From Bacteroidales bacterium (GTDB lineage Bacteria > Bacteroidota > Bacteroidia > Bacteroidales > UBA10428), in contig JAFGPB010000087.1 in the NCBI GenBank assembly GCA_016926205.1, positions 1-60,919 on the forward strand: a stretch of DNA of 60,919 nucleotides, given 5' to 3'. How positions within the stretch are numbered: position 1 is the stretch's first letter; each line of letters starts with the position of its first letter. Shown here piece by piece: positions 3,001-17,130 of the stretch. The notes beneath the pieces were generated by a model. It was not told the origin of the DNA. It searched no databases and worked only from the letters and a program-made list of their open reading frames with translations. The position numbers were made by a program, and so were the translations under genes.

Positions 3001-6000
3001 AGCTCATCCAGCTTGATTTCTATCAGATTTTCGTCAGGCCATACGATCCTCCGTTCAGAATCATTATAATTGCCCTGGGGGGTTACCTTCAATGGAACTT
3101 CATATTCGTAGTAGTTGTCGGTCTGGTCAGATCCCATCCTGACAAAAGCCGTGATTTCATAATCATTCAGGTTCTGGTTGATCAAAGCTTCCGCATGAAC
3201 AAACATCTTCAGCATTTTATACTGCCTCAGGTCAAGGTTCATGTTCTTATAAGCACCTCTGGCATCACCATCTGCAAGGTTGCGTACCCTATAGACCACC
3301 GACTGTTCATTCAACTGGGCAATCTGAGGCTGACTGGGATCCACAACACGGTCGATTCCCGGGGGCAGAATATAGTTGACGGGTTCTTTGGCTGCATTTT
3401 CTTCAATATTTACGGACGTGATCTCAAAATTTCCGCCTTCATACTGATTTGTGATGGAAGGGCCTCCCTGAACAAGACTGTTGTTGTATTTTCTCCATTC
3501 CGACCTGATCAGGCGCAACTCGGCAAAACGAAGGATCACCGGCTCCCGGAATCCCGTCAGGTACATTCTCATGAACCTTATGGACTTGAAATCCTCAATA
3601 TTCCCGTATTTCTTCTCGAAATCGTTGATCGGGATGCGAAACTGATACCAGTTTACATCCTTCCCCCTTACGATCTCAGTGATATAATCATTCTCAACAT
3701 TCATGATCCCGGGCTTCAATGGAACATGATATTCATAATAAGATTCCGTTTCATTTAACGTATTGTCACGATTTAAATCCTCTGTATTCGGCAGGGTTGT
3801 ACCTGCCGCAAAATCACCTCCGCTCTGCTGGTTTGTCGGTGAGTTGCCTTCCATATTATTGTAATCCTTATACCGGGAAATGACACCTGCCGTATCGCTG
3901 TAATCAGGACTGAGAAAATACCTGAAATTATCACGGGAAGGATCTTCAAATGCCATCTGAAATGCCTGTGAACCCTGAGGCAATGCATTAAGATATGACC
4001 TGAATTTTTCCCGCTCCTGATCATCATCCAGACCGTCGAGTCCAACGTCCTGCATGGCGCGGTTGTCGGGATCAGCATCGAAAGTGTTTACAATGGCCTG
4101 TACCGTAGGCACCCTGCCCCAGACCGTGTTTGTATCAACACGGACAATGGTGTCCGTTGTCGGCAGACCGTTTTCAAACGATTTGCGTGAATCTTTCAGC
4201 ACATCCTCAGAGATCTCTCCGAGGTTGAAATACAAATCACCTCCCTGATGCAGGGAATCCTCAACGAAAGGATCCATAAGCCAGAACTCTATATATTCAA
4301 TATTGGAAGTTTCAAAATCATTGGTCTGAATTTCACGCATAATGCCGCCCCACCTAAGTTCAGGATTCGGAAGCCTGCCGTCAGGGGTAATTGACGGATC
4401 GAAATTATAAGGACCCCGTTCTTCAGGATAGTAGGCCAGGTTCATGACAAGCAGGGTATTGTCAAAGCCTGTGCCGCTTTCCCTTTTCTTAAAGATCTCC
4501 GTTTCCAGGATCTCCCGGACAAATTGACTGTTCTGCTCTTCCTCGGTGATGTTGTCGGGGGTTCTTGACTCATTTCGTGTAAAAAGCGGATCGATCGAAT
4601 ACCAGGCCAGTTTTGCCCGGTTGTAACCGTAGCGCAGATCATTCAAAGTGCCGGAATATTCAAACCTTTTGGGTGTACTGGACAAAAACCAGGACTGAAT
4701 CGTTTTCAGCTCAACCGGGGTTTCTGTACCTTCAAAATCATCTATGTATGCAACACCCCCTTCACCGATGACTTTGGCCTGACCGGGGATCAGGTGTGCG
4801 AATTCAGCATCGAATGTCACCGTAGACGGTTCTTTCGTCTCGATCAACGGCAGTTTGTCAATTAAATTGGTGATGAGTTGTGATTCCGTACGGTAGCTGG
4901 TATTCAAACCCCATATGGTGTTGGAGATCGGTTCGTCGCCAATATTGACCTTTTGCGTTAAGGGTCTTTCTGTCAGGTTCATCACTGTCGCGCCCACATT
5001 GAAATTGTCCGAGAACCTGTATTCCATATGTGTGCCCACAAGGGTCTTGGTCTGCAAATTGAAAAGCGCGTTGTTCTCAAGTGAAACCCGGATCGGCGCT
5101 CCGGATTCAATAAGTCCCTGATTCAGGATCCTCACCCTTCCCAAAGTGTAATCCACCGTATAATCCTGTCCTTCAGCAAGTGTAAGCCCCCCTGAAGATA
5201 CCTTTACGGAGCCCTGGGGTATGTTAATCGCATTGAGCTGTATCTCTGAACTGGAAGATGACTGGTAGGAACCTTCCAGGAAAAACTTGTTCTTTCCGGA
5301 GTTCTGTCGCGCCTTGGTTTGTGTGGAATCATAAAGCGCTTCAAAGACATATTTATCAGCAACGGGATCTCTGGCAGGGTCGCCTCCGGTGATGGTCATG
5401 CGTAAATCCGAACCAAAAGGCTCAACCTGCGTGAAAAAGATCCTTCCGTCCCGGGCACTGACAGTAATTCCTTCTATAAAGTCAAACCGGCCGTCCGGAA
5501 CCGGTTGATTCCTTGAATCGAGATTGTCCATGTCCATCACCTTAAGCAGAATCTTCCGGTTAAAACTGCTGTCAGCCTGATTGTCGGCAATATAATTCAC
5601 AGGAACACCCGTCTCATCTTTCCTATACAAAATATCCATAATAAAATCCTGGCCTGAGACCTGATATGCTCCGATTGCATAAACATTTTTCATCATCAGA
5701 TCCCATGTTCCGAGCTTTGGGGTCAGAGTGGTACCCTTGATCATTTTTACGGCCAGTGTTGCTGGTGCGCTCACACCATCGGTTGACAACTCTCCCACCC
5801 GGTAAGTCTTGCCCTGAAATGTATACACATAAGCAACTGCCAGCACTTCATCCGACCGCAGCGCAGAATTCAGGGAAATGTACCCCAGCTCCCTGTTTAC
5901 CGTATATTCGCGTTCATTTAACTTACGGGCATTTTCAACTTTTTCAAAATCAATTCCGTTGTAAAAACCTGAAGTACCTTCAAGAGGAGCAAGGATTTTG

Positions 6001-9096: not shown

Positions 9097-10869
9097 TCAC
9101 TTCAGATTCCTGAAAAGGGTGAACAGGAATTCCAGTCCGCCGTTGCTGCGGTTTTTTACAGAAATTGTGCCTTTGTGGAATTCTATGGCATTTTTAACGA
9201 TGGCAAGTCCGAGTCCGGTCCCACCCCTTTTGCGGTCGCGTCCCTTATCCACTCTGTAAAACCGTTCAAAAAGCCTGGGCAGGTCTTCGTCAGGGACTCC
9301 TCTGCCATCGTCCGAAAATGAAAAATAATAGAATTCCTCATCTTCAGCGTATTTTTCGATCCTGATGGTCGTGCCTTCCCCGCCATGATCAACAGCGTTA
9401 TCCATCAGGTTCCTGAAGACCGAGTACATCAATACCGGATTGCCCTTTAACATTAGTTTACTGCCTATGGCAATCTCCAGTTCTATCTGATGCTCGTCCA
9501 GTCCCGGCCGCATCTCCTGCTCTATTTCTTTAAGAATATTGCGCAGGTCCATGGCTTCTATTTCATAAAGACTGCCGGCTTCTTCAATTTTTGTAAGCAG
9601 GGAGATATCATTGACCAGATGGGAAAGCCGACATGCCTGAGCATATGCCCTGTGCAGAAAATCCATGGCCTTTTCCTTTGGAGGATTGCTTTCAATGATG
9701 GTTTCGAGCAGTCCCCTGATGGAACTCACCGGTGTTTTCAACTCGTGGGCAATATTTTCCGTTAGTTCCTGTTTCAGCAGCTTTCTTTTTGCAGGTCTGG
9801 TAACATCCTGTATGGAGACTTCGAAACTTTTATCCGGAAAGACCATGCTTTTGACATTGTAGTATTTTCCGCCCTTGCTTAGGGAGATTTCACAGACAGG
9901 TTGTTTTTCCGCAAGTTTCTGCACGTCTTTCCGGATGTTTTTGTAAATGAAACGAAAAAGATCCTCAAAGTCCGGTATGTTGAAAAAGCCTTCCGGTGAA
10001 TTTACCCTGGAATCACTGATATGGTTGATAAATTGCATAAAATGCTTGTTGTTCGTGATCACTTCCATATCTTTTGAAAAAATTGCAATGCCCTCTTCCA
10101 GCATGTTCAGGTGTCTGATAAGCTTTTCCCGCTCCGATAACAGGGTTTCTTTTGTCTGGTTCAGCTTACGGTAAATTTCGATGATCTCCTGCCCGATTGA
10201 GCCCAGCTCGTTATCCGGGAAATCCAGACCTTCCTCAACGGATTTGTTCGAGAGCACACGTGAAGTAAATTCCTTCAGTGTGTGAACCGATTTGCCAAAT
10301 TTGTCATTGATCAGAACAATACTGAAGGAGGTGATGAAAAGGACAATCACCAACAGAAGCATGAAGATGGTATCGGGCTTGATGAACTGTCTTGTTTCCA
10401 GATCGAAAATCACAGATATCCTTATGAAGTATTCTTCAACATACCTGGCATAATAATAATACCTGATTTTTGTGGTGGCTGAAACCCGAATGTCGGTGCC
10501 GAATTCTTCACGGAGGGATTGCCGGACCTCGGGACGGTTCAGATGATTCTCCATGGTGCCGATATCTTCCACACTGGAATCGTACCACACCGCACCCTCC
10601 GGAGAAATTACGGTAATCCTCAGCGTATGATCCTCGATCAGACCGGTAAGTGAGTCCAGCCTTTCAAATGATTTTTCTTCGCTGAGCTGATTTTTCTGAA
10701 TGTAATTTATAGCCAGCGAGGCATAATTGTTCAGCTCATCATTCAGTGCCTCAATGCGGATGCTCTTTTCGTGCCGGTATTGAATGATCAGCAGAACAGA
10801 GGTAAAAAATACAAGAAAAGTTACCGTATAAAAAAGCCATTTTCTGTTGTAGGAAGAAAAAAATCTCAT
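9097..10869 (-). CDS. Membrane sensor histidine kinase (PhoR-like)
   Basis: 590 aa; two N-terminal TM segments, H-box ENIAHELKTPVSSIRGLLE, N-box FRNLMDNAVDHG, G-box DDGRGVPDEDLPRLFERFYRVDKGRDRKRGGTGLGLAIVKN. Directly precedes (by ORF order) a PhoB-like regulator. Confidence 0.93.
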   Translation of the reverse strand: MRFFSSYNRKWLFYTVTFLVFFTSVLLIIQYRHEKSIRIEALNDELNNYASLAINYIQKNQLSEEKSFERLDSLTGLIEDHTLRITVISPEGAVWYDSSVEDIGTMENHLNRPEVRQSLREEFGTDIRVSATTKIRYYYYARYVEEYFIRISVIFDLETRQFIKPDTIFMLLLVIVLFITSFSIVLINDKFGKSVHTLKEFTSRVLSNKSVEEGLDFPDNELGSIGQEIIEIYRKLNQTKETLLSEREKLIRHLNMLEEGIAIFSKDMEVITNNKHFMQFINHISDSRVNSPEGFFNIPDFEDLFRFIYKNIRKDVQKLAEKQPVCEISLSKGGKYYNVKSMVFPDKSFEVSIQDVTRPAKRKLLKQELTENIAHELKTPVSSIRGLLETIIESNPPKEKAMDFLHRAYAQACRLSHLVNDISLLTKIEEAGSLYEIEAMDLRNILKEIEQEMRPGLDEHQIELEIAIGSKLMLKGNPVLMYSVFRNLMDNAVDHGGEGTTIRIEKYAEDEEFYYFSFSDDGRGVPDEDLPRLFERFYRVDKGRDRKRGGTGLGLAIVKNAIEFHKGTISVKNRSNGGLEFLFTLFRNLK

Positions 10870-10878
10870 ATTGCCGCT

Positions 10879-11571
10879 TTATTCGGTTTCAAGACAGTAA
10901 CCGTAACCCGATCTGCTGACCAGGTGTTTGCCGTACTTTCCCAGTTTCTTTCTCAATCGGGTAATGTGTACGTCAACCGTCCGTTCAATCACTGTCACAT
11001 CACGCCAAGCAAAATTCAGGATCTGCTCACGGGTGAAAGTGCTGCCCGGATTCTTCATCAGGATCTGCAGGATCTTGTATTCGTTTGGCGTAATATCGGT
11101 CCTGACACCATCCACAAAAAGCCTTTTCTTCTCAAAATCCAGTTCAAGTCCGAGTATTTTCAGCTTTTCCTTCTTTCCTTTGGGTTTGAAATCCGGTCCC
11201 GATCTGTGCAGAACTGCCTTCACCCTGGCGATCAACTCCCTGATTGAAAATGGCTTCGTGATGTAATCGTCAGCCCCGAGTGTAAACCCCGTCAGTTTGT
11301 CATTTTCCGAATTCCTGGCTGTAAGAAAAATGATGGGTTTGTCGAGTCTCTTTTTTTTCCTCAATTCATTGGCCAGCATAAAACCCGACATTCCCTTCAT
11401 CATGATGTCAACCAGAAACAGGTGGTAATCATCCAATGGCATTTTCAGCGCCCGTTCCGATGAATTGACGGCATCCACATGAAATCCTTCCGCCTCAAGG
11501 TTGAATTTGATGATTTCACAGATGTCCTCCTCATCATCCACGACAAGTATTCTCGGCTTCAGATTGTTCAT
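10879..11571 (-). CDS. OmpR/PhoB-family response regulator (winged-helix DNA-binding)
   Basis: 230 aa; ILVVDDEEDICEIIKFNLEAEG receiver, FLTARNSENDKLTGFTLGADDYITKPFSIRELIARV, C-terminal LTPNEYKILQ-like TREQILNFAWRDVTVIERTVDVHITRLRKKLG. Confidence 0.95.
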   Translation of the reverse strand: MNNLKPRILVVDDEEDICEIIKFNLEAEGFHVDAVNSSERALKMPLDDYHLFLVDIMMKGMSGFMLANELRKKKRLDKPIIFLTARNSENDKLTGFTLGADDYITKPFSIRELIARVKAVLHRSGPDFKPKGKKEKLKILGLELDFEKKRLFVDGVRTDITPNEYKILQILMKNPGSTFTREQILNFAWRDVTVIERTVDVHITRLRKKLGKYGKHLVSRSGYGYCLETE

Positions 11572-11624
11572 AATCTTTTATTTTATAAAGATCACAGCAT
11601 GCGGGCGAAATAAAAAAATACTTC

Positions 11625-11668
11625 TTACGCTCTGGTTACAAATTCGTTACAAAAATATTACAAGAATC
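11625..11668 (+). promoter_or_regulatory. Candidate Pho-box-like direct-repeat array (4 x 11 bp, TTACR on + strand)
   Basis: TTACG at 11625 and TTACA at 11636, 11647 and 11658: TTACGCTCTGG TTACAAATTCG TTACAAAAATA TTACAAGAATC, exact 11-bp period. Confidence 0.65.
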
Positions 11669-11711
11669 TCTTCTGTAATATATTCTTAATGGAATTGTAA
11701 CGCTGCTGTAA
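11668..11711 (-). promoter_or_regulatory. Candidate Pho-box-like direct-repeat array (4 x 11 bp, TTACA on - strand, one unit degenerate)
   Basis: TGTAA on + at 11674, CTTAA at 11685, TGTAA at 11696 and 11707. Read on minus: TTACAGCAGCG TTACAATTCCA TTAAGAATATA TTACAGAAGAG; 11-bp period, mirror-symmetric with the + array about 11668. Confidence 0.58.
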
Positions 11712-11843
11712 AAATATGGGATTATCATCGAACCGGTAATACGAATTGGTAAAAAAGATATAACTCATTGATTTACTGAATACTTTTAAAATACCGGACA
11801 GTGACCATCCGTACTCAGCAATAATTTTTATCATCTCTGTCAA

Positions 11844-14111
11844 ATGGAGCAATTCTTCCTTATCATTGTGATTATTCTTTTTATTCTTGCGGTTTCTGAT
11901 CTGATCGTCGGGGTGAGCAATGATGCCGTGAATTTTTTGAATTCCGCCATCGGTTCAAAAGCAGCACCCGAAAAGATCATATTCCTGATCGCCACAGCCG
12001 GGATACTTTTCGGTGCGACCTTCTCAAACGGAATGATGGAAGTCGCCCGGAACGGAATATTCAATCCCTATGTCTTTACCTTCTCTCACATTATCATCAT
12101 CTTTCTGGCCGTGATGATAACGGACGTATTGCTGCTGGATCTCTTTAACACTTTCGGACTGCCCACCTCCACCACGGTCTCGGTGGTCTTTGAACTGCTC
12201 GGAGCAGCTGTAGGCATGGCTTTCATCAGTATCAGAACTTCAGCAGGAACCGCAAATGACATCGGTGATTATATCAATTCAGAAAGGGCTCTTTTGATTA
12301 TCAGCGGCATTTTGCTTTCCATTGTGATTGCATTCACTGCAGGGATGATCATCCAGTATGTTTCGAGGATCATTTTTTCCTTCAATTTTAACCGGACCGC
12401 CAGGTATTTCGGGGCAATATGGGGCGGACTTGCGATTGCATCAATCACCTATTTTATACTGATCAAAGGAGCCAGCGGTTCTTCCTTCATCAATGCGGAG
12501 CAGTCCTCATGGATCAAAGAACACAGCAATGCAATCCTCGGTATTTGTTTTGGGGGATGGACAGTTTTGATGCTCCTGCTTCAATGGCTTTTCAACACAA
12601 ACATTTTCAAAGTAATCGTACTTTTCGGAACATTTGCCCTGGCCATGGCTTTTGCAGGTAACGACCTCGTGAATTTCATCGGTGTGCCCCTGGCCGGTTT
12701 TGAATCCTATAAGATCTTCTCGGCACAGAGCTCATTGTCAGCGGATGCATTCCTGATGCAGGGCCTCATGGAAGAAGTGAAAACTCCGACCTTCTTCCTG
12801 CTGCTTGCAGGAATTGTCATGGCGCTGGCACTGTGGTTCTCCAAAAAAGCACGCAGTGTGACAAAAACTGAAGTCAACCTTGGGAATCAGGACCTGATCA
12901 ATGAGCGGTTCTCATCCTTCGCATTTGCCAGGGCAATCGTCCGGATCGGGATACGTTCCGGAAATGTATTCAGGCTGTTGATTCCTGAAAAAATCAGCAA
13001 GTCCCTGGACGAAAGGTTTGACGACAAAACCTTTAAAAAGGAAATCAGAAAAAACAAGAGTATCTCTTTTGACCTGGTCCGTGCCTCCGTCAATCTTGCC
13101 GTATCAAGCAGCCTGATCGCTCTGGCGACATCCTACCGGCTGCCGCTGTCCACCACATACGTTACTTTCATGGTCGCCATGGGCACGTCCCTTTCCGACC
13201 GGGCCTGGGGCCGTGAGAGCGCCGTATACCGGGTTTCCGGTGTGCTTACCGTGATCGGCGGCTGGTTTTTCACAGCTTTAAGTGCCTTTACAATCGCAAT
13301 GATCATTGCACTCCTGATTCACTGGGGCGGACCAGCCGCCCTCATCGCCATGATCCTGTTGATCATTTTCATCCTGTACAGGACCTACGTTCTGCACAAG
13401 AATCGTGAAGAAACCATTAAAAAAGCTGAACTCGAAGTATCAGCATCCGATGGCATTTCTGCGGCCGATGCCGGACATAAATTCAGCAACCGGATCTCAA
13501 AACTAACCGACAGGGCTGCGGATCTTTATGAAACGGCAATACTCTCACTGATCGCTGAAAAAAGAAGAAAACTGGCAGTTGCCAGAAAGAGGTTCACGGA
13601 ACTTCAAAAAGACATAAAATCCTTCAGGAAGAACACGTATCAAATGATCCTCAGCATGCAGGAAACCGAAGCTGACAAACATGGTGAGCATTTCATGCTG
13701 ATGCTTGCCCATCTGAATGAAATGGTCCGGAGCCTTGAACACATCATTCATTCCGCTTACGAACATGTTGACAACAATCATGAAACGATGAAATCAAAGG
13801 AAGCGGATGATCTCATGTCATTCTGCAGATCCTGTGGAGACTTCATTCAAAGATCGGGGAAGATGATCCCCGAAAGACATCCTTATGAGATGGGAAAACT
13901 TCATGATGCCATGATGGATCTGAGAGCAAGGCTGTCAGCTATGGGCAGGGACCATCTTAAAAGGATCAGGACCACGCCCTCAGGTACACGTGCCAGCCTG
14001 CTTCATATAGGTATTCTCAGCGAGTCCAGGAACCTCATCCACTCAGCTTACATGCTGGTCTCGGCTTCAGATGAACTGTCCCGTTCAATTCAATCTGGCA
14101 CCAAAGGCTAG
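11844..14111 (+). CDS. Inorganic phosphate transporter (Pit family) with long C-terminal helical/PhoU-DUF47-like extension
   Basis: 755 aa; VSNDAVNFLNSAIGSKAAP and FAGNDLVNFIGVPLAG (the two inverted Pit signature motifs), GLPTSTTVSVVFELLGAAVG, YRLPLSTTYVTFMVAMGTSL; about 200-aa charged helical C-terminus. Confidence 0.92.
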   Translation: MEQFFLIIVIILFILAVSDLIVGVSNDAVNFLNSAIGSKAAPEKIIFLIATAGILFGATFSNGMMEVARNGIFNPYVFTFSHIIIIFLAVMITDVLLLDLFNTFGLPTSTTVSVVFELLGAAVGMAFISIRTSAGTANDIGDYINSERALLIISGILLSIVIAFTAGMIIQYVSRIIFSFNFNRTARYFGAIWGGLAIASITYFILIKGASGSSFINAEQSSWIKEHSNAILGICFGGWTVLMLLLQWLFNTNIFKVIVLFGTFALAMAFAGNDLVNFIGVPLAGFESYKIFSAQSSLSADAFLMQGLMEEVKTPTFFLLLAGIVMALALWFSKKARSVTKTEVNLGNQDLINERFSSFAFARAIVRIGIRSGNVFRLLIPEKISKSLDERFDDKTFKKEIRKNKSISFDLVRASVNLAVSSSLIALATSYRLPLSTTYVTFMVAMGTSLSDRAWGRESAVYRVSGVLTVIGGWFFTALSAFTIAMIIALLIHWGGPAALIAMILLIIFILYRTYVLHKNREETIKKAELEVSASDGISAADAGHKFSNRISKLTDRAADLYETAILSLIAEKRRKLAVARKRFTELQKDIKSFRKNTYQMILSMQETEADKHGEHFMLMLAHLNEMVRSLEHIIHSAYEHVDNNHETMKSKEADDLMSFCRSCGDFIQRSGKMIPERHPYEMGKLHDAMMDLRARLSAMGRDHLKRIRTTPSGTRASLLHIGILSESRNLIHSAYMLVSASDELSRSIQSGTKG

Positions 14112-14120
14112 ATTGCCAAT

Positions 14121-14223
14121 AAAAAATTTCAGAGTTTTTTCTTGAGTTCGGTGGTAAAAAATTCAGAGCTTTTTCTTGACTTCTGTGGTAAAAAGTTCAG
14201 AGTTTTTTCTTGACTTCTGTGGT
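14121..14223. repeat. Tandem triplication (34-35 bp unit) of the infB 3' end
   Basis: Copies at 14121-14155, 14156-14189 and 14190-14223 on consensus aaaaaattcagagttttttcttgacttctgtggt. On minus each reads ACCACMGAASTCAAGAAAAARCTCTGA, i.e. TTE(V/L)KKKL-stop. Confidence 0.95.
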
Positions 14224-17130
14224 TTCATAACCTTCAACGATATCGCCGACCTTAATATCATTGAAGTTTTCAATGTTCAATCCGCAATCCTGTCCGCTTA
14301 CAACTTCCTTCACGTCATCCTTGAACCGCTTGAGCGATGCAAGAATTCCTGTATAGATCACGATACCTTCGCGGATTATCCTCACTTTTGTTTCGCGTCT
14401 GATCTTGCCTTCCTTAACGATACAGCCGGCAATCGTTCCAACCCTGTTGATTTTAAATGTCTCCCGCACCTCAAGGGTTGCCACGATTTCCTCTTTGATC
14501 TCGGGTGAAAGCATGCCTTCCATGGCAGACCTGATCTCATTGATCGCGTCATAGATGATGGAATAAAGCCTGATATCGATCTGCTCTTTTTCTGCCAGTT
14601 TGCGTGCCTGCAGGGAGGGCCTGACCTGAAAGCCCACAATAATGGCATTGGAAGCCGCGGCAAGCAGAATATCGCTTTCCGATATCTGACCGATGGCTTT
14701 GTGAATCACATTGACCTGGATTTCTTCATTCGAGAGCTTGATCAATGAATCGGACAGTGCTTCAATGGAACCGTCCACGTCGCCCTTTATAATGATATTC
14801 AGTTCTTTGAAATTGCCTATCGCAATTCTTCTTCCGATTTCATCCAGTGTAATATGTTTCTGGGTGCGGAGTCCCTGTTCGCGTGACAACTGTTCCCGTT
14901 TTATGGCCAGTTCCTTTGTTTCTTTTTCGCTTTCCATAACGTTGAATTTATCCCCTGCCTGCGGTGCGCCATTCAGACCCAGCACAAGCACCGGATCGGA
15001 CGGGTAGGCCTGATCGATCTTTTTGCCCCTCTCATTATACATGGCTTTAATTCGGCCGTAATGATGTCCGGCCAGCATCATATCGCCGATCTTCAATGTG
15101 CCTGTCTGTACCAGTAAAGTTGCAATAAATCCGCGTCCCCTGTCCAGTGAAGATTCAATGATCGTTCCTGTTGCACGCTTGTCCGGATTTGCCATTAAAT
15201 TCAGCATTTCAGCTTCGAGAAGTACTTTTTCAAGCAAATCGTCTACATTCAATCCTGATTTTGCCGAAATTTCCTGTGACTGGTATTTGCCTCCCCAATC
15301 CTCTACGAGTATGTTCATCTTGGCAAGCTCTTCCTTAATTTTTTCAGAATTTGCCGTAGGTTTGTCAATTTTATTAATGGCAAATACCATTGGGACACCT
15401 GCTGCCTGAGCGTGATTTATCGCTTCAACGGTTTGTGGCATAATGCCGTCATCCGCAGCGATCACGATAATAGCGACATCCGTTATCTGCGCCCCCCGGG
15501 CCCGCATGGCAGTAAAAGCTTCATGTCCGGGTGTGTCCAGAAAAGTAATCTGCCGTCCATCCTTGAGCTCCACACCGTAAGCACCTATGTGCTGGGTTAT
15601 GCCACCTGCTTCACCTGCAATGACGTTCGCATTCCGGATGTGGTCAAGCAGTTTGGTTTTGCCGTGATCAACATGTCCCATCACTGTGACAATCGGAGGC
15701 CTTGTTTCCAGATCATCCGGACGGTCTTCCTCCTCTTCAACGGAATCATGAAGGTCGGCGGTTATAAACTCGACTTTATAGTTGAATTCTTCTGCAACAA
15801 GCACCAGTGCTTCTGCATCAAGTCTCTGATTGATTGAAACAAACAAACCAAGGCTCATACAGGCAGCGATCACCTCGTTTACATGAACATTCATCAAGGT
15901 AGCCAGTTCATTCACCGTAACAAATTCTGTGACCCTGAGTATATTCTTTTCCTGTTCCTGTTTTTCAAACTCCTGCTGCAAACGCTGACTGGCAATTTCA
16001 CGCTTTTCACGCCTGTACTTCGATCCCTTTGATTTGCCCTTGCCTGTCATTCTGGCAAGCGTATCCTTTATCTGACGGTCGACATCTTCTTCACTGATCT
16101 CATAACGGTAACCCTTCCTTTTCTTCTTTCTCTTTTTATCCGTTTCCGTTTCAGCGAGTTCGGTTTTGGGTTTATCCAGACTGACACGTCGTGTGTCCTT
16201 GTCAATTCTCCTTCTTTTTCGTTTGTTATAGATCTGTTTCTTGTCCAGATCCTCTTCACCTGCATTCAGCTCTTTTGAAGAAATGATTTTGGCCGCCTTC
16301 GGCTCTTTTCCTTTTGCCTCTTCCTCATGTTTTTGCTTCTCCCTGGATTCAACAGCTTCATCACTTACTTTTTCTTCTGCTTCCTTACGTTTTTCTGCAA
16401 GTCTGGCTTTCCGTTCCTGTTCCAGCTGTTCCCTGCCTTTGCGGACCGGTCTGGTCCGCTGATTCATCGCTTCAAGATCAATTTTACCCACAACTTTCAC
16501 TTCAACATCCTTGACTTCAGGCTTTATGAATACTTCTTCCCGTTCTGAAACGGGTCTTTTTTCAATTGTATCTTTCCCTTTTGATGATTCCTGGTCATGT
16601 ACCTGTATTTCCTCCGGCTCTTCTTTCCGAAGGGATTCTTCCTTCTTTTCAGACGGAACCTTCTTCTTTTCCGGCTCTGCCTTTTTATCAGTGCCTTTTG
16701 GGGCAGGAGCAAATTTATCTACATCAATTTTGCCGATCACATTCAAACGGAATCTGTCCCTCTCGGTTATCCTGGTTGTTTCCGGTTCCGGTGGAATTGA
16801 CGTGCCCCGTGTATCTTTGATGAGCACTTCATCTTCAAAATCCTGGTTATCCAGCTCATTGGTCTCTTCGACATCCTGCTGGGAAATGGTTTCCATTCGC
16901 TCCCTGCGTGTCCGGAGATGAAGCATTTCTGACTCTTTTTTGGCATTCAGGTCGGTGCTAAATTCCTTAAGGAGCATATCCTGGAGTTCAGGCGCAATTT
17001 TCTCGTTGGGATTTGAATTGATCTTCACTCCCTTCTTATGCAGGAAATCCACAATTGTGGAAATGCCCACATTCAGTTCCCTGGCAATTTTACTAAGTCT
17101 TGTTGCTTTTACTTCTGACATTCCAGGCAA
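14197..17130 (-). CDS. infB: Translation initiation factor IF-2
   Basis: 977 aa; G-domain [54 protein letters not shown]; charged N-terminal region. The true start may be at [19 protein letters not shown]. Confidence 0.98.

Follow-up and report, generated by a model that had tools for sequence, protein, structure and literature searches.

Two predicted PhoB operators, back to back between phoBR and pit in a Bacteroidales genome

What is the role of eight short repeats, spaced by one turn of the double helix, between the gene of a response regulator and the gene of a phosphate transporter? The question is raised by a stretch of 60,919 nucleotides from a Bacteroidales bacterium (contig JAFGPB010000087.1), called here the window. 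A sequence-only reading of the window had proposed that the repeats are a Pho operator which drives both divergent units and has an unusual 4+4 head-to-head arrangement. The answer favoured here, with a probability of about 0.9, is that the repeats constitute two operators for PhoB, or Pho boxes, which lie back to back between phoBR and pit and from which phosphorylated PhoB (PhoB~P) activates transcription, one box per gene.

The repeat arrays and the genes that flank them

The arrays are present as first described. On the forward strand, TTACG at 11625 is followed by TTACA at 11636, 11647 and 11658, and the second array consists of TGTAA at 11674, 11696 and 11707 with CTTAA at 11685; in both, the steps are exactly 11 bp, and the two four-unit arrays mirror each other about 11668. 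A Pho box is expected to contain at least two direct repeat units with an 11-bp period, and four such units are found on each side. The CTTAA in the second unit of the pit box does not signify decay, since most modules of the genus have something other than TGTAA as unit 2.

Such arrays are not expected by chance. The pattern TTAC-N7-TTAC-N7-TTAC, with at most one mismatch, has four matches in the 61-kb window, all of them at the array, compared to 0.09 expected from dinucleotide shuffles. We also trained a unit matrix on seven other congeneric genomes, excluding the genome of the window. The two best four-unit scores in the 61 kb are 28.8 (minus strand, first unit at 11662) and 24.2 (plus strand, first unit at 11674), in that order; the best four-unit score in 100 shuffled windows is 19.1, and when the intergenic region was shuffled 5000 times, 0 of 5000 shuffles reached either value.

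The flanking genes had been recognized from the letters as a PhoR-like kinase, a PhoB-like regulator and a phosphate transporter, and matches to NF053855, NF053854 and PHO4 bear this out (Table 1). PhoB scores 300.3 bits against the Bacteroidetes equivalog NF053854, for which the curated cut-off is 270, and PhoR scores 641.4 bits against NF053855, with a curated cut-off of 500. The recognition segment in the winged helix of this PhoB, RTVDVHITRLRKKL, is nearly identical to its counterpart in E. coli PhoB, RTVDVHIRRLRKAL. The phoR gene begins 9 bp after phoB, and the two are presumed to share one operon. The Pit protein has a long soluble C-terminal extension beyond the PHO4 domain (about residues 500-755), which is kept in relatives within the order. 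Further along the window, at 14125-14225, about three tandem copies of a stretch of ~38 bp (TTTTTTCTTGAnTTCnGTGGTAAAAA...) extend over the infB end and into the gap that follows pit, and look as if the 3' end of infB has been duplicated.

Table 1. Genes, predicted Pho boxes and putative promoter elements of the phoBR-pit region (window coordinates)
Feature	Position	Strand	Remarks
phoR, sensor histidine kinase	9097..10869	-	NF053855 HisKinPhoRBctds
phoB, response regulator, presumed DNA-binding protein	10879..11571	-	NF053854 RespRegPhoBBctds
phoBR -7 element (putative), TTATTTCG	11606..11613	-	4/6 of TAnnTTTG; 16 bp past last-unit start
phoBR-side Pho box (predicted)	11624..11662	-	four 11-bp units; top window score 28.8; conserved in 9/9 congeneric phoB promoters
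phoBR-side box units, phoB coding strand	TGTAAT 11662-11657, TGTAAC 11651-11646, TGTAAC 11640-11635, CGTAAG 11629-11624	-	
pit-side Pho box (predicted)	11674..11712	+	four 11-bp units; second window score 24.2
pit-side box units, pit coding strand	TGTAAT 11674, CTTAAT 11685, TGTAAC 11696, TGTAAA 11707	+	
pit -7 element (putative), TATCATCG	11723..11730	+	4/6 consensus positions; 16 bp past last-unit start
pit-type phosphate transporter, divergent partner	11844..14111	+	PF01384 PHO4, E 1.8e-21

Orientation of the boxes and spacing to the promoter

The arrays can be read on either strand. Taking TTACA as the motif makes them converge; this option was dropped, as in that orientation no -7 element is found at a constant distance. 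If each box is read in the coding direction of the gene that it faces, it consists of TGTAAY-N5 repeated four times. The consensus of the -7 element in Bacteroidetes, recognized by sigma-ABfr, is TAnnTTTG (PMC7366714). When the offset is counted from the start of the last box unit, the match to this consensus on the phoB side is 4.78/6 at offset 16, versus 1.95 +- 0.50 at other offsets (n=9 genomes), and on the partner side it is 4.88/6 at offset 16, versus 1.85 +- 0.51 elsewhere (n=8). The partner-side comparison is partly post hoc, and is the weaker of the two, because three of its arrays, those of G161, G163 and G167, were picked by eye among several adjacent ones as having a -7 element at +16; the independent test in other Bacteroidales (see below) is unaffected by this. 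In the window itself, each of the two -7 elements matches only 4 of the 6 consensus positions.

Given that TGTAAC on the outward strand produces a constant 16 bp in 9/9 genomes, we conclude that the boxes lie back to back, each pointing outward at its own gene. The operator proposal thus stands as far as the identity of the Pho boxes is concerned, with gene identities, conservation and recurrence at phosphate genes on its side, but the arrangement is not head-to-head.

For the independent test, the genus-trained matrix was run on the regions upstream of phoB in other Bacteroidales (61 non-redundant sequences). The mean of the best scores at period 11 amounts to 4.65, versus -6.09 +- 0.47 for shuffles; at periods 7-10 and 12-15, it lies between -3.5 and -6.2. 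About 40 of the 61 upstreams are without a strong box on the phoB strand. In the 21 that score at least 12, with loci from Bacteroides rodentium, Phocaeicola and Paludibacter among them, the -7 match is 4.86/6 at offset 16 versus 1.77 +- 0.45 elsewhere. An alignment of 21 Bacteroidales phoB promoters has TTTG of the -7 element at that position throughout, bar one letter in one sequence. The consensus of the box in these promoters is TGTAAY, TGTAAC, TTTCAT, (N)GWAAT, with TTTCAT often found as unit 3 in Bacteroidaceae. Thus, a fixed position upstream of the core promoter, of the kind from which a Pho box activates, is observed in all nine congeneric phoB promoters as well as in the independent set.

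The same spacing bears on the sign of regulation. OmpR-family regulators are able to repress from sites that overlap promoters, and the box proximal to phoB might be such a site, so that PhoB would repress phoBR (negative autoregulation) and activate pit from the other box. This is quite improbable, as both boxes are placed identically with respect to the -7 element, in the placement that is activating at E. coli phoA, and PhoB of Flavobacterium johnsoniae increases in low phosphate (PMC8115612).

Conservation in the genus and the meaning of the mirror symmetry

Nine congeneric genomes, the one of the window included, have this PhoB. Exact three-unit TTACA arrays, sought in ten genomes of the genus, are found only upstream of phoB, and conservation of the array in orthologous intergenic regions, as an operator would require, holds in the congeneric phoB loci. 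The two-sided arrangement is kept in 8/9 of these loci, with two kinds of divergent partner: pit in the genome of the window, G162, G164 and G166, and an operon of porin_O_P (phosphate-selective porin) and pstS in G161, G163, G167 and G169, which continues with pstC, pstA and pstB where the region was read. Divergent regions of both the pit type and the porin-pst type carry arrays on each side, and the boxes equivalent to the pit-side box face either pit or porin-pstSCAB in 7 congeneric genomes. The closest relative, G165, with PhoB 82% identical, has kept the phoB-side box and lost the other side. At this locus (L081, G165:C42:40000-50000, about 3740-4894), a 1.2-kb stretch followed by arsenic-type genes (for a permease, an ArsR-like regulator and an arsenate-reductase-like protein) takes the place of the pit-side box and pit, and the break adjoins the first unit of the phoB box.

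The window has 11 bp between the two boxes; five relatives have 37-39 bp, and two have 128 bp as measured by the outer array. This variation matters for another reading of the symmetry, in which all eight units form one integrated dyad operator, with PhoB on the two halves interacting across the axis, so that phoBR and pit are switched together or one half loops onto the other. The 11-bp inner gap in the window, the perfect 11-bp phasing of both halves and the prevalence of the double arrangement in the genus would fit such an operator. However, the gap is not conserved, G165 has the phoB box alone, and the phoB promoters of Bacteroidaceae have a single box, all of which makes an integrated dyad unlikely. 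Because the inner gap varies and single boxes are found in other families, we view the mirror as two boxes facing opposite ways, not as a rigid palindrome. By the same token, the 4+4 layout combines two standard boxes at a variable distance; it is one way of arranging the general Bacteroidales Pho box and does not constitute a new operator type.

The compact version seen in the window, with eight units and the 11-bp gap, might nevertheless act as one cooperative bidirectional switch in this reduced genome, where a search for a pst operon had no result. Such coupling is possible but unsupported, and we judge it about as unlikely as the integrated dyad. If true, filling of one half would be aided by PhoB filaments that start on the other, and the supply of the regulator and the uptake of phosphate would be tied to a single threshold.

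Occurrence of the module at other phosphate genes

Two box units with the -7 element were defined as the genus module. With at most one mismatch, 8/9 matches in the genus are at phosphate loci (phoB, pit, a TonB receptor, and a PlcP-like phosphoesterase-glycosyltransferase); with two mismatches, total counts are barely above the control, and a DUF47-PiT pair is also among the matches. A stricter module in nine Bacteroidaceae-type genomes produced 57 matches versus 9 in the control. One genome, G105, accounts for 20 of the 57, and about a dozen of these 20 do not look like the module, with unrelated TGAAAC/GTTTCA repeats among them. The remaining matches are found upstream of phoB, pit, pstC, a pstS-containing operon, polyphosphate kinase (ppk), alkaline phosphatase and metallophosphoesterase, and a minority are intragenic or precede genes with no evident phosphate role. 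When 198 genomes of the order were scanned blind for exact matches, 27 were obtained versus 12 in the control, with sites upstream of phoB, pit, pstS and TonB-receptor-like genes among them. A separate contig scan relied on response-regulator motifs, which are generic; among the matches listed are named loci of Bacteroides, Phocaeicola, Parabacteroides and Paludibacter. Loci of the same-order genomes (for example L255 and L188) coincide with such named loci, supporting their placement in Bacteroidales.

The genome of the window (2.24 Mb, 88% complete), scanned with three mismatches, has 43 matches versus 47 in the control, with only this locus above background, and therefore no regulon beyond the locus is visible there. 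The expectation that a genome-wide motif scan would pick out phosphate genes is thus borne out in relatives, where sites cluster upstream of phosphate-acquisition genes, but not in the genome of the window, where this locus is the only one to stand out.

These data also bear on the specificity of the box. Direct repeats with an 11-bp period are generic to the OmpR/PhoB family (PMC4415409), and the repeats could be sites of another regulator of that family, with phosphate genes adjacent by accident. This is highly improbable, considering that phoB itself has the box next to it, both within the genus and in Bacteroidales at large, and that the box precedes pit, pst, ppk and alkaline phosphatase genes in genomes where these are unlinked.

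Several other loci deserve mention. A pst operon was looked for in the 88% complete genome of the window, and none was found; this would suit an organism with a reduced phosphate economy that depends on Pit, but could be an assembly gap. The lone PstS-like match (C31) lies beside ExbB/TolQ-like genes and was rejected as evidence of a pst operon. A second pit gene, 60% identical to the first, is located at a contig end (G000:C50:1148-3397, L080), and the 128 bp available upstream of it contain no box. A second conserved divergent region with Pho-type promoters was seen in three relatives (G161:C89:11537-11678, G164:C30:33595 and G169:C24:267609-267751; L123, L125 and L124, respectively), with a TonB-dependent receptor and a ~940-aa sorting-tail protein on one side and a lipid-remodelling pair, PlcP-like metallophosphoesterase and glycosyltransferase, on the other. 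A one-mismatch Pho module at G163:C21:9944-9978 (L126) is just upstream of a gene for an ECF-type sigma factor, either by chance or as a link to the regulon.

Proposed mechanism and comparison with known systems

PhoB binds Pho boxes made of 11-bp direct repeats in a head-to-tail manner (PMC4415409), and recruitment of sigma-70 at PhoB promoters is seen in an E. coli structure cited in that paper. By analogy, phosphate limitation would lead PhoR to phosphorylate PhoB, and PhoB~P would fill the four 11-bp units of each box head-to-tail, one unit per helical turn. With 16 bp from the start of the last unit to the -7 element, PhoB would be placed over the -33 region, where it may recruit the sigma-ABfr RNA polymerase, in the same way as PhoB acts with sigma-70 at pho promoters of E. 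coli. One box would drive phoBR, resulting in positive autoregulation, and the other would drive pit. For this locus, we infer that PhoB binds the boxes, that it activates and does not repress, and that its autoregulation is positive.

The kind of system is already known. What appears to be undescribed is the consensus, its fixed spacing to a -7 element specific to the phylum, and the placing of two boxes back to back: the sequence-only reading was aware of no well-described Bacteroidetes Pho box of this form, and our own search, which covered the open-access literature, likewise found neither a Pho box nor a PhoB motif for Bacteroidetes or Bacteroides. In gut Bacteroides, PhoB governs sets of genes for survival and colonisation, and the same box and promoter spacing occur at phosphate genes across Bacteroidales, gut Bacteroides included. 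TGTAAY-N5 units with a -7 element at 16 bp should make the Pho regulon of Bacteroidales, uncultured members included, predictable from sequence. The geometry of PhoB promoters is the same in Bacteroidetes and E. coli, despite the different primary sigma factor and -7 element.

The PhoP box of Bacillus is made of TT(A/T/C)ACA repeats. This box, as well as the TTAACA repeats in pit upstreams of the order, resembles the boxes of the window in the period of about 11 bp, the AT-rich TAAC core and the presence of multiple units; the TTAACA repeats of the order differ from the window in the unit itself (TTAACA versus TGTAAC) and in having another offset to the -7 element. They were seen in other families of the order (L011-L039), where 18 of 23 pit upstreams have two TTAACA units exactly 11 bp apart, and 0-1 have them at other periods. 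These promoters often add a third AT-rich unit and a TAnnTTTG 25-37 bp further on, and represent a second, Bacillus-like dialect of the Pho box, found mostly in genomes in which the best PhoB match is below the NF053854 cut-off.

Among Bacteroidetes, PhoRB of B. fragilis (BF1576) is a regulator of the same type from the same order, which controls pst, a phosphate permease and other genes (PMC3547664). B. fragilis PhoB binds its own pstC promoter in EMSA, and the phoB mutation lowers the permease, BF3715, by 52-fold; the paper gives neither a box consensus nor a repeat architecture (PMC3547664). In F. johnsoniae, phoBR, oprP, a glycosyltransferase, PlcP and TonB receptors are linked or induced by low phosphate, and the main text of the report on this Pho regulon mentions no Pho box, motif or binding site (PMC8115612).

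The Pho box of E. coli (CTGTCAT-N4 direct repeats, e.g., at phoA) shares the 11-bp repeat period with the window, and the recognition segments of the two PhoB proteins are near-identical (RTVDVHI-RLRK). At E. coli phoA, CTGTCATAAAGTTGTCAC, TATAGT is found at TGTCAC + 16, so that strand orientation and spacing are as in the window, with TGTCAC in place of TGTAAC. Unlike E. coli, the window has TGTAAY units and not CTGTCAT, and it is the geometry, not the CTGTCAT consensus, that is common to both. The basic box of E. coli has two units and the boxes of the window have four; the sigma-70 -10 element is replaced by TAnnTTTG of Bacteroidetes; and, in contrast to the E. coli Pho box, the window has a single divergent region that holds two boxes back to back.
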